DNA of 64,000 nucleotides, from contig OY540814.1 of NCBI GenBank assembly GCA_961205875.1, forward strand, positions 1,674,001 through 1,738,000, given 5' to 3'. This document shows, one piece after another, positions 22,526 to 61,720 of this stretch (positions are counted from its first letter, which is position 1; each line of letters starts with the position of its first letter). The notes below the pieces were generated by a model. It saw only the letters and a program-made list of their open reading frames with translations, had not been told where the DNA came from and made no database searches. This DNA comes from Sialis fuliginosa. Its lineage: Eukaryota; Arthropoda; Insecta; Megaloptera; Sialidae. The translations under genes were made by a program, and so were the position numbers.

Positions 22526-23220
22526 ATACTGCCACTTTTTGTATTTCTTTTTATCTTGGAATGTATTTTATAATAAACTGTATATAATTTTTTATGTAAA
22601 CATGTACATTTCACGTCGGATTGTTTATTCAGTTTTTATGTCTAATTGCGGTAGCTTGTTGTTTGAGTGTTCTCTTGTCTTATGACAGTTACAGATACGC
22701 CGGTTTTTAATGTTTGCATATATTATTATTATTTTGTTTTACTTATTAACGTATGTTCACTGAATTTGTATGACGTGACAGTGACAGCAAGAACGGTTTA
22801 TTGTTATCTTTTGATATTAGTAGCGTCGATTTATCTGAAAAAAGGCTGTTTCGTGAAATCTCTTACAAGGGAACCTTTTCAAGTGGCATATTCGGATCGA
22901 GTTTAAATTCTGTGTATAGTTAGAGGGGGTCAGGATAAGTAAGAAATAAATTATCTTACTCATGTTACTAATAAAACAAGTAACTCTTTATTTCATCAAT
23001 TTATTACTTAAGTCCGCAAACATAGTTTGTTTTTTAAATTATAGCCTTTTAATTTGTTTATGTTTTTTCTCCAGTAATGGATAAAGTAAAACCAGTAATG
23101 AGTACGCAGTGATAGACACTTGCTAATGATTACAAAATGATAAGTACTACGACACAAAAGATATAAAAGAAAGAATCGTATTTGAAACAATGTAAAGCAG
23201 TTGCTATGATAATATAATAA

Positions 23221-24038
23221 CACAGGCCTGCGAAATTGAACTTTTTTTTCCCCCTCTAATAATTATGTTATTTTTTTTAAATATCTAGGTATGTGAAACT
23301 AAAATACAGCTTTGTTTTTTTTCTAGCACATCGAGATTTTTTTTATTGATGACATGCATATTTTAGAATTTTTTAACAATTTTCATGTAAATATAAAAAT
23401 TAATGATTTTAAAATTAAATTTTTACTGAAAAAACCAACAGTATTAGTTTAAAATAATGCTAAAGAGACTAAGTAAATCAAAAATACTTATGGTATCTTT
23501 TTCTACTTCCTTCAAAACTCCTGTTTAATCTTTTTTACATTTTATGCGGCACCCATTTCTTGTCTTGGTTTTTTATCTTGATTTTAAAATACCTTTCATA
23601 CAATTCTTCAATAGATTTAGAAATATTTTGTAGTTGTTTCCGTACTACATAACTTCCACATGTGTAACAGAAGTTATCTGGAGAATTAACACATTTGCGA
23701 GGGGCCATTTGTCTTATTTATTACCATACAAAAATCACAAAAATATCGTACCACAGTCGATACACGTAAATCATAATATGATTATAATCACGACAAACAA
23801 TGACTAATGAGGGTAGATAAATATTTAAATGTCATCAGTACTACTAGCATGCACTGTTGTCAAAGAAATTGGAAGTTAACGCTAGTAATAGGTGGTAATA
23901 CTAAGAAAAATGAAAAAAGTCATTTTCTCAGAAAATTTACGTGATGGAATTTTTTGATTATTTTTTCGTAGCTTAGTACCTAATACCTACCGAAATTGCT
24001 AATTAGTTTTTTAAGGGGGAAACCATCGCAGGCCTGTG
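23221..24038 (-). mobile_element. CACAGGCCTGCGA-ended element with a small ORF
   Basis: An 818-bp element inserted in a family E copy; 13-bp inverted ends CACAGGCCTGCGA (23,221-23,233) and TCGCAGGCCTGTG (24,026-24,038). It splits family E between ataatataataa and taatactaataattag. The ends resemble the CAGGCCTGCACAA ends of the hAT MITE at 62,157-62,391, which suggests the hAT superfamily. A clean 8-bp duplication could not be identified. Confidence 0.7.
23535..23708 (-). CDS. 57-aa cysteine-containing frame inside the transposon
   Basis: From the ATG at 23,708 the minus strand encodes MAPRKCVNSPDNFCYTCG, then SYVVRKQLQNISKSIEELYE, then RYFKIKIKNQDKKWVPHKM, and stops at 23,535. Cys at residues 6, 14 and 17 and the closing KxWxPH look like the start of a zinc-binding domain. 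A CxxCG followed by about 35 residues and a QDKxWxPH box recurs, from memory, in many uncharacterised arthropod and hydra proteins that seem to be transposon-derived. The expected next cysteines are missing because the frame stops, so this is probably the truncated N-terminus of the element's former protein. Confidence 0.45.
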   Translation of the reverse strand: MAPRKCVNSPDNFCYTCGSYVVRKQLQNISKSIEELYERYFKIKIKNQDKKWVPHKM

Positions 24039-24470
24039 TGATTTATAATACTAATAATTAGTTTAAATGCCCACCATTTTGACACCTATTGGCCGATTGT
24101 CATCAAATCACGCTTTAAGACAGTTAAATGTATATAGATTAATATTCAGAAACGGTAGTAATCAATACCAACAAATATTTCTAATTAAGTACACTTTAAA
24201 TTAAAAAATAGTCATTACTAATGCCAGTACCTTATATGAATATAGAAAAAATATTTTTCTTGGCATATGCATATTTTTGTTAAGATAATTTTCTAAAAAA
24301 AAAGGGGAAAAAACATGTCGTTATTGACATTATTTGTGTAACAACATATGACATTTGATGAAAATTCTTGAGATTAACTTTCATAAGTTTTCCGAGATGG
24401 AAAAAGTTGTGTGTGTGTATAGATGTCGTTGTTATGTTCTTTTGAAAGATTATATATCATATATCGATGA

Positions 24471-40172: not shown

Positions 40173-40198
40173 GTTTATTTTAATTGATTGTACTTTTT

Positions 40199-40970
40199 AC
40201 TTCCATGTTCTGAAAGAAATGGAAGTATTGTAATACCATCGAAAAATCGTGTCCGAGAAAATGACAAATTCTGATTGTACTAACTTCAAAACTTAAAGAA
40301 AAGTTAATTTCCGCATGACGGCTGTGCGTGTGTCTGTGTGTCTGTGTGTCAGGATGTAGATTTTTTTTTTCGTTCACGATAACTACCGTAAAAATGCACC
40401 GATCTAAATTATTTTTGGGGAAAATGCTTGTCTCAATGAGTACTCCAGACCTATTAATTTTGGTGCTAATCGGATTAGGGGTTTTGGAAATATTCGAAAT
40501 TTTGTAACTTTTTTCGTCTAAAAAGTGAATATTGTGTATATTATCTCACTAATTTTGATAAGATTTGGTAAATTTGCTGTTTAATTGAATCTAAGGGACA
40601 TTTATTATTTGTACGTGCCTAAACAGCCATTAAAGGGGTAAAAAACACACTTAAAATTTGAATTTTAAATACTAATATGTCATTAATTCATGTTGCCTTG
40701 GAAACAAATGCAATTAAATTCAAATTGTCAAATTAGTTTTTCTACGAATGTGAATTATATTTTTGACATTAGAAAACTAATATTTATGTATAAATGGCAA
40801 AAAGAGCTGTAACCGTTGTAAATATATATGTTTTTTTAATGTATTACGATATATTTTATTCATAGTAGTAGGTTATATAAATAAAATATTTAAAAAAATG
40901 TATATTTAAAAATTAGTTAAAAAGATAGAAAGAACATGGAAGTCATGTATGGTTCTCCATACCGATATTT
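40199..40970 (+). repeat. Family A repeat, full-length copy
   Basis: ACTTCCATGTTCT at 40,199-40,211 and its inverse AGAACATGGAAGT at 40,931-40,943, then catgtatggttctcc to about 40,970. Internal order as in the 5,087 copy. At the left, acttccat and atggaagt can pair as a short hairpin. Non-coding. Confidence 0.85.
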
Positions 40971-41990: not shown

Positions 41991-42458
41991 AGGTAAATGT
42001 ACATAATTCTAGTCTATTTTATTAAAAATTAATGAATAAGATAACTTTAAGAGATTTCATTGTTGTTACTTCAGATTTCTAAAAATAACCGAACATAGAA
42101 TCAATTCAATTAATAAGTACCTATCTATGAAATCTCTTAAAGTTATCTTATTTATAGAGATTAAAAAATAGTTGTTATTTTCAATGAAATAGTTACTAGT
42201 TGATTTTTTTTTTTGGAAATTAGTTTTTTTTTACGATTTAATAATAATTAGTGCAAACGAAGCAGTAAAAAATAGTTGATTTCAAATTGTGTTCAATCAA
42301 ACCAGTTTTCTGAAAACGGTGGAGATATGTAATATTTACAATAAATATACATTTTTACGCAATAGCTGAAAAACTATTTTCCAATCTCTACTTATTTATT
42401 AATTTTTAATAAAATAGACCGTAATTATGTACTAAGCCGGGATTATGTACATTTACCT
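41991..42458. mobile_element. Element R, TA target, palindromic MITE
   Basis: 17-bp perfect inverted ends AGGTAAATGTACATAAT and ATTATGTACATTTACCT between TA dinucleotides (41,989-41,990 and 42,459-42,460). The inverted arms extend further inward (ataagataactttaagagat against its inverse at 42,128-42,152). The right arm is split by a family D element. TA targets suggest Tc1/mariner. Confidence 0.8.
42155..42390 (+). mobile_element. Family D hAT MITE nested in element R
   Basis: Starts TAGAGATT and ends CCAATCTCTA, flanked by a perfect 8-bp duplication CTTATTTA at 42,147-42,154 and 42,391-42,398. Removing it restores the right arm of element R. Confidence 0.85.
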
Positions 42459-46698: not shown

Positions 46699-46706
46699 CA
46701 TATTAG

Positions 46707-47223
46707 TAGAGATTGGAAAAATAGTTGTTATTTTAAATGAAATAGTTACTATATAGTTGATTTTTTTTCTGTAAAATAGTTGGTAAATAGTTTTTTTTAA
46801 TCAAAATAGTGAAATAGTTACAAATTTTTTTACAATAATAAATTTTTTTTCGATTTAATCAATAATTAGTGAAATCTGAAATTTTCGAGGAAAACATGTT
46901 GTGGTCGATTCTAGATAGATTTTAGAAGCTTAAAAAAAGGAAAAACAAATAAATATGTAAAAACACAACATAAATATCTATACAAATATCTGTATAATAG
47001 ACAAAATGTATTTCTAAAAATATATAAAACTACAAAATTTTTAACGTTGGATAAAAAAAAGGCAAATAGTTTTAAAATAGTTGAAAAGGTAAAATAGTTG
47101 CAAATAGTTGATTTCAAATTGGGTTCAATCAAACCAGTTTTCTGAAATCGATGGAGATATGTAATAAAAACTACAATAGTTACATTTTTCGCAATAGTTG
47201 AAAAACTATTTTTCCAATCTCTA
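46707..47223 (+). mobile_element. Family D hAT MITE, best-preserved copy
   Basis: 517 bp with inverted ends TAGAGATTGGAAAAATAGTT and AACTATTTTTCCAATCTCTA. Perfect 8-bp duplication CATATTAG at 46,699-46,706 and 47,224-47,231. TAGAG fits the hAT end consensus. The interior is dominated by aaatagttg words and has no transposase frame. Confidence 0.9.
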
Positions 47224-57888: not shown

Positions 57889-58926
57889 TAGATATTGGAA
57901 AAATAGTTATTTACAATGAAATAGTTGGCTGATTCTCAAAAAAAGTAGACAAATGATTTTGTTATATTGTGTTTTTTTTTTTTTTAATAATGTACAATTT
58001 CTTTCGTAAATATAATAAAACATAGGGTAATTTTCTGAAGGGTTATAGTGGTCCCCAATATTTTTGACTTTAAAGGGGGTTAAAACAAAAATTCAAAAGT
58101 GAGGATATGATAGCTTAGTGTATTAGTGAGGGAATGACAAGCGAAAATGTTTTGGATAATAAAACTTTAAAACAATTTCAACAATACACTTCAACACTCA
58201 GCCCTTTCGCCATTTTTATTTTTTAATGTCAGTATTGCCACATTATAAAAACAATAACACTGCGTTCAGATAGATTTAAAATTACGGTCTAATTTCACTG
58301 TTACAGAAATTGTGAGGGAATGATTCGTTTTTTTAGGACATACTTGTAAATTTATTTTCTGTTTGTGTTTTACTTACTGTTGTACATTTTTAAATAGAGA
58401 ATATTGTTATAAATGAATAAATAATAAGTTATTAAACGCATTCTAGAAAATTTTTCGAAACAAATTAGAAATGTATTTAAATTTGGTGGTTGGGACACAG
58501 TGAGGGAATGATTTTTGAGGTATAAATTTTAATATATTTTTACAATTTATAATAACTGAAATAAAATTAATATACAATTTGGTACACCTAGTGATGTAGT
58601 TTCATAAGAGAATCTCCTTAACTTTAATTTTCGATCTCGTTTTATAGAAATCAGAAAGGACAACAATTTAGATTTTTTTTTAGAATCAGCCAGTTACTAG
58701 TTGAATTTTTTTTCGGAAAATAGATTTTTTTACGATTTGATAATAATTAGTGTAAACGAAGCAGTAAAAAGTGTCGCAAATAGTTGGAAAGGTAGTTGCA
58801 AATATTTAGTTGATTTCAAATCGTGTTCAAGCAAACCAGTTTTCTGAAAACGGTGGAGATATGTAATAAAAATTACAATAAATACATTTCTACGTAATAG
58901 TTGAAAAAGTATTTTTCCAATCTCTA
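57889..58926 (+). mobile_element. Family D hAT MITE, enlarged by element M
   Basis: Starts TAGATATTGG and ends CCAATCTCTA, with flanks CACATTAG (57,881-57,888) and CACATTAC (58,927-58,934), 7 of 8 matching. D sequence is 57,889-57,926 and 58,692-58,926. Confidence 0.85.
57927..58691. mobile_element. Element M, 4-bp target duplication
   Basis: A 765-bp insertion in family D. Inverted ends GGCTGATTCT and AGAATCAGCC; flanked by AGTT on both sides (57,923-57,926 and 58,692-58,695), where other D copies have a single agtt. Inside, tgagggaatga occurs three times (about 58,126, 58,311 and 58,501). No frame. Superfamily not recognised. Confidence 0.75.
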
Positions 58927-61278: not shown

Positions 61279-61720
61279 TAGATATTGGAATAAATAAAAT
61301 AAATAGTTGTTATTTTCAATGAAATAGTTACTAGTTGAATTTTTTTTCTGAAAATAGTTGGTAAATAGTTTTTTTACGATTTAATAATAATTAGTGCAAG
61401 CAAAGCAGTAAAAAGTGTCGCAAAAAGTTTTAAAATAGTTGGAAAGGTAGTTGCAAATAGTTGATTTTAAATTGTGTTCAATCAAATCAGTTTTCTGAAA
61501 ACGGTGGATCTATTGCGGTGTTCACACCAAAGAAAACAAAACAGCAACACGGTGTTTGAAAACACGTCGTATTTAAAAATGCATAGGCTTTATTGCACTT
61601 TTGTCAAAAAGACACGATGTTGCTGTTTTGTTTTTTCGGTCTGAACACGGCAATATGTTATAAAAATTACAATAAATGCATTTTTACGCAATAGTTGAAA
61701 AACTATTTTTCCAATCTCTA
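61279..61720 (+). mobile_element. Family D hAT MITE with element N inside
   Basis: Starts TAGATATTGG, ends CCAATCTCTA. Flanks ATTATCAT (61,271-61,278) and ATTTACAT (61,721-61,728), 6 of 8 matching. Element N splits it at gaaaacggtgga / atgttataaa. Confidence 0.8.
61513..61654. mobile_element. Element N, 142-bp TA-target MITE
   Basis: Between TA dinucleotides (61,511-61,512 and 61,655-61,656). Inverted ends ttgcggtgttcacacc and gtctgaacacggcaa, continuing inward as aaaacaaaacagcaacac against its inverse. Short middle. Confidence 0.8.

Follow-up and report, generated by a model that had tools for sequence, protein, structure and literature searches.

The element at positions 23221-24038 of the window, the whole 64-kb stretch of DNA analysed here, is very probably a DNA transposon of the Chapaev3 group (Chapaev; CMC/CMCT clade) that is non-autonomous and has lost internal sequence, as judged from a comparison of ends, target and motifs with text descriptions of Chapaev3. 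By our own analysis the element is 818 bp long, and the minus strand is its coding strand. Chapaev3 is a known kind of transposon, and the window holds a further member of it in which 57 codons are left.

The window element and its surroundings

The element is bounded by perfect 13-bp inverted repeats, CACAGGCCTGCGA, located at 23221-23233 on the plus strand and at 24026-24038 on the minus strand (the 3' and 5' ends, respectively, when the element is read along its coding strand), and an inverted-repeat search scored the arms as 18 nt with 94% complementarity. When up to two mismatches were allowed, CACAGGCCTGCGA occurred at just two sites in the window, which were both ends of the element; a shuffled-sequence control gave a mean of 0.06 matches, and none of 100 shuffles reached two. 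This pair of matches bears out the preliminary description of the region as a transposon with inverted ends. On the minus strand, positions 23535-23708 hold a frame with its own ATG, 57 residues (MAPRKCVNSPDNFCYTCG...NQDKKWVPHKM) and then a stop codon, corresponding to the start of a transposase N-terminal zinc finger with one C-x2-C pair. The stop codon sits at an internal deletion junction, and immediately after it, in the same frame, lies a remnant of the transposase C-terminus of about 18 codons (23481-23534, minus strand), 78% identical to the copy at locus L061. Both ends and the 57-codon frame are real and lie far above chance expectation. The frame had been described as complete; it does run intact from ATG to stop, but it is a truncated transposase remnant and not complete in itself.

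A 3-bp target-site duplication flanks the element, with TAA on the left (23218-23220, preceded by A) and TGA on the right (24039-24041, followed by T), the latter with one mismatch to TAA. The left flank (23121-23217, plus strand) is a piece of a high-copy dispersed repeat that hosts the insertion, and the right flank (24042-24220, plus strand) belongs to the same repeat, of which empty copies are known. This repeat is very abundant, with 1598 and 781 first-look candidates in the flank searches. The joined window flanks matched empty repeat copies across the junction in all 40 that were scored of the 781 candidates, at 90-95%. At the empty site the A/T-rich tract varies in length, so the exact bases that were duplicated in the window copy cannot be assigned. 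The same repeat adjoins the insertions at L014, L016, L019, L028 and L034, and its A/T-rich linker has been hit by several Chapaev3-type insertions, namely these and the window copy.

Other repeats were also observed in the window. Similar open frames (..DEKSYKISNISKT..ISTKINRSG..) at 1432-1800 and 40180-40545, and at L012 from position 2884, point to another dispersed repeat. Segments at 42157-42401, 46702-46799, 47075-47223, 58718-58926, 61301-61508 and 61640-61720 match the interior of element L031 at 76-92%, and this internal sequence is another repeat, probably nested in L031.

Ends, target sites and motifs across the family

The host assembly (392 Mb in 20 contigs, with the window on contig 6) was searched for copies of both the ends and the peptide. 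The pattern CAGGCCTGCGA was found at 21 + 21 sites genome-wide, compared with 4 + 4 for the backward control pattern, and six facing pairs lay 811-1,298 bp apart, the window copy included. These six two-ended copies carry both CACAGGCCTGCGA ends and a common subterminal sequence, and their internal deletions differ. When the DNA around all 42 sites was compared, 24 sites proved to be the ends of 18 related elements (6 two-ended and 12 one-ended). Pieces of the protein family were present in 14 of these 18 elements, and in none of the 18 remaining CAGGCCTGCGA sites (tblastn, E <= 1e-3 in both cases). As a separate observation, the sites L045 2968, L063 301, L072 1501, L054 3005 and L067 1501 carry CAGGCCTGCGA with A/T-rich flanks and no homology to the element; L054 3005 and L067 1501 have near-identical surroundings and may be ends of some different repeat.

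Searched against the host genome, the 57-residue peptide gave 63 match rows at E <= 0.01, including two pieces of one copy on contig C1, and 36 of the rows were below 1e-8; such match counts for the protein family are lower bounds. The suggestion that the peptide starts a recurrent protein family was therefore confirmed by these 63 rows, as was the association of this family with transposon ends by the 14 of 18 elements against 0 of 18 other sites. The proposed tie to CAGGCCTG ends specifically did not hold, as other subfamilies carry CACTGG, CACTAG, CACTAC or CACAGGCACA ends. The link between family and ends is correct, and it is broader than first proposed.

This breadth was seen when loci were scanned for CAC...GTG pairs whose two ends resemble each other and whose 3-bp flanks do so too (at least 2/3 of the duplication bases matching). 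The sample comprised 38 family loci (L009-L038, L040-L043 and L059-L062) and left out 11 other one-ended CACAGG elements. Ends of this kind were located in 34 of the 38 loci; no CAC...GTG pair was found at L015, L026, L060 and L061, and for L032 the second-ranked pair was used, as the one carrying the ends of its subfamily. Eight end types were recognised (CACAGGCCTGCGA, CACTGGTCAACA, CACTGGGCAACA, CACTAGG, CACTACTTTACA, CACTGGCCAACA, CACTAGTTTACA and CACAGGCACACA), and the bounded elements span 777-2,429 bp. An exact 3-bp target duplication was present in 33 of 34 (16 TTA, 14 TAA and one each of GAA, TTG and ATA), a count biased upward because the finder required at least 2/3 matching bases; the sole inexact case was the window copy, with TAA/TGA. 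An A at -4 and a T at +4 occurred in all 34, and this A/T context was no part of the selection. A permuted-flank control gave 13.8 matches of 34 on average and a maximum of 24 in 20,000 permutations.

Longer copies contain, in order, a Cys-rich N-terminal domain, a linker and a core, and the motifs of the core follow one another as FIDSSK, CGDLKV, C-x2-C, PPLHIKLG, H-x4-H and [DE]E[HQ]GER. The C(2)C motif was read as CFKC/CFIC in L062 and L059, and the LH motif (PPLHIKLG) was found in L062 and L038. In the H(4)H motif, LHFLHNH, the two outer His residues are invariant in the five sequences of alignment A3, and the inner one varies. As for the acidic residues, FIDSSK was found in L062 and L059, CGDLKV in L062 only and [DE]E[HQ]GER in 5/5 sequences, so that all three were read together in L062 only. 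The window copy itself is without the region of the C(2)C, LH, H(4)H and acidic motifs. A probe from the later half of the core gave at least 139 rows (150 of 210 candidates scored), and a probe around the first two acidic residues gave 37 rows, two of them near complete in one frame and one of these being the probe source. Among the copies found in the host genome, none carries an intact transposase of full length. In the N-terminal domain, the C-x2-C ... C-x2-C arrangement is kept in all six sequences of alignment A5. Chapaev has been described as carrying an N-terminal Chapa zinc finger related to part of RAG1 (PMC4411706), and the family shares with this Chapaev/Transib/RAG1 group, as described there, a Cys-rich N-terminal domain before a DDE core. 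From its position and Cys content, the N-terminal domain of the family may be a Chapa domain.

Pfam searches with the micro-ORF and three longer coding pieces returned no model above cut-off, and PDB profile searches with alignments A1, A2 and A5 gave chance-level matches only. Relatives were not found in viral contigs (three single proteins and one alignment as queries) or in genome contigs (one alignment as query), and no mention of six family peptide strings was found in the literature. Some side observations concern rearranged copies. At 20 places among the 139 rows of the later-core probe, a second C-terminal block lies inverted relative to the first and no more than about 1 kb away from it, and this rearranged derivative (e.g., C1:18894998-18895801 and C7:2663971-2664762) seems to have multiplied. 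Upstream of the family copy at L060, open frames at 216-1190 resemble pieces of a Copia-type retrotransposon.

We assigned the family to Chapaev3 because its ends, its A-TWA-T target and its C(2)C, LH and H(4)H motifs match the signature described for that group. In the account of Merrow, Garfield and Conan (Zhang et al. 2014, PMC4079192), Chapaev3 is marked by CAC/GTG ends, a TWA duplication with adjoining A and T, and the C(2)C, LH and H(4)H motifs, and it also yields short derivatives by internal deletion; the family shares the CAC...GTG ends, the 3-bp TWA duplication in its A/T context, the motifs and the short deletion derivatives. The window copy, with 818 bp and 57 codons kept, compares with 2,289 bp given for Garfield_BM in the same account (PMC4079192). 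Chapaev3 is placed together with EnSpm, Mirage and Transib in the CMCT clade (PMC12730594). An alternative is that the element belongs to CACTA/EnSpm, narrowly defined, rather than to Chapaev3. We consider this improbable. According to the same source, CAC...GTG ends with 3-bp duplications fit EnSpm as well (PMC12730594), and C(2)C and H(3-4)H are described as common to all CMCT members; CACTA/EnSpm and TRC elements share with the family their CMC kinship, CAC/CCC ends, duplications of 2-3 bp and these motifs (PMC1636069, PMC12730594). However, animal CACTA-related elements are described as defined by Transposase_21 and as having ends in CCC and duplications of 2 bp (PMC1636069), whereas a 329-residue catalytic piece of the family had no Pfam match, Transposase_21 included, at E up to 10, in a search where HMMER filters discard most weak matches and a diverged Transposase_21 relative could escape. 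The TWA target with its flanking A and T, found here in 34 of 34, also follows the Chapaev3 rule as described (PMC4079192).

The preliminary description had labelled the element hAT-like with CAGGCCTG ends, a reading in which the ends start at CAG and the duplication is 8 bp. Taken alone, the window copy can be read in this way, and CAG...CTG ends also fit many hAT elements. Across the family, however, exact duplications of 4, 5, 6 or 8 bp were found in 0/34 elements, whereas exact 3-bp duplications counted from CAC were found in 33/34; the same protein's other subfamilies start CACTGG, CACTAG or CACTAC, and three coding pieces had no Pfam hAT domain at E up to 10. With ends of the form CAC...GTG and 3-bp duplications, the hAT label is extremely unlikely to be right, and it was dropped because of the lengths of the duplications. 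PIF/Harbinger was rejected as well, since the same Pfam search gave no Harbinger domain and the ends are CAC, although the TWA duplication, also typical of Harbinger, fits.

Origin of the window copy and its short reading frame

Returning to the Chapaev3 reading, we have proposed a plausible course for the origin of the window copy. A DDE transposase from an intact copy elsewhere, present now or earlier in the lineage, would bind the ends, excise the element and paste it into an A-TWA-T target, giving the 3-bp duplication; the internally deleted form would itself have been mobile. The 57-codon frame is what remains of the beginning of the transposase gene. A copy at C3:17.56 Mb, 97% identical to the window copy, has the identical internal deletion junction in different flanks, and the deleted form has therefore presumably moved at least once. 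The deletion common to both copies starts shortly ahead of the second Cys pair and reaches to roughly the final 18 codons of the gene. Another copy at C1:38.70 Mb (88%) is laid out in nearly the same way, is 22 bp shorter at the junction and is frameshifted; it may represent a further deletion or a separate one.

The micro-ORF peptide is the front half of a zinc finger with one C-x2-C, and the second pair and nearly everything downstream are gone. Judged from its sequence, the 57-codon product is most likely inactive, because it would have only half of a zinc-binding domain and no catalytic part, and the window copy is most likely an ordinary remnant of a genomic parasite. It is very unlikely that the truncated frame has been retained for a functional small product, such as a repressor competing with the transposase for the ends, as the KP element of P does in Drosophila. 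The frame is open in two of the three copies of this layout, and nine of the 15 copies of another subfamily retain a frame of equal length, 230 residues, without the catalytic part, which would suit such a role. Against it, the window peptide has lost the finger's second Cys pair, the C1 copy of the frame is frameshifted, and of the four base differences between the window and C3 frames three replace residues. Divergence between these two copies within the frame (4/174) is like that upstream (9/323) and downstream (4/314), and in the nine 230-residue frames 6 variants are silent and 18 replace residues (pN/pS 0.77; test against neutrality, p 0.61). Neither the window and C3 comparison nor the nine 230-residue frames gave any sign that the truncated frames are under selection, and a small-protein function is therefore unsupported.

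The N-terminal domain and meaning of the family

The N-terminal domains of two subfamilies show a weak resemblance to the zf-AD domain (ZAD, PF07776) of insect zinc-finger proteins. The matching domains, at L038 1489-1710 (E 1.5e-4) and L034 1501-1746 (E 1.7e-4), cover most of the model, and their scores are under the curated cut-off (22 vs 28 bits); the two commonest subfamilies gave no zf-AD match at E up to 1. Five of the nine members of alignment A1 matched zf-AD at E up to 10. Among shuffles preserving the Cys positions, 0/10 matched zf-AD, and one reached E 0.005 with another family. A profile-profile comparison with three host ZADs gave 31% probability and E 5e-4 (a single comparison) over 31 columns, and the PDB profile search returned no ZAD chain at E up to 10. 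ZADs are themselves plentiful in the host, with more than 100 of 150 scored matches (194 candidates) above the family cut-off, which makes an arthropod, and probably an insect, the most likely host. From these profiles, it is conceivable but rather unlikely that the transposase N-terminal domain is homologous to ZAD, and that ZAD shares ancestry with, or derives from, a Chapa-related CMC finger. The Chapa domain has also been reported in RAG1 (PMC4411706). No proposal of a transposon origin of ZAD was recognised among the literature matches listed, and ZAD-ZNFs are discussed in the relevant text of PMC10547256 without the word 'transposase'.

This study adds to the known Chapaev3 kind 34 copies bounded at both sides, which fall into eight end types and all have A...T around the target site. 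It also provides a likely name, Chapaev3-type transposase, for a recurrent protein family that Pfam does not recognise above cut-off. If the same is true in other animals, predicted 'genes' of this family should be masked as transposons. The ZAD resemblance is just a lead, but if real it would be weightier than the naming of a transposon, and it would link a domain of one of the largest families of insect transcription factors to the finger of a CMC transposase.
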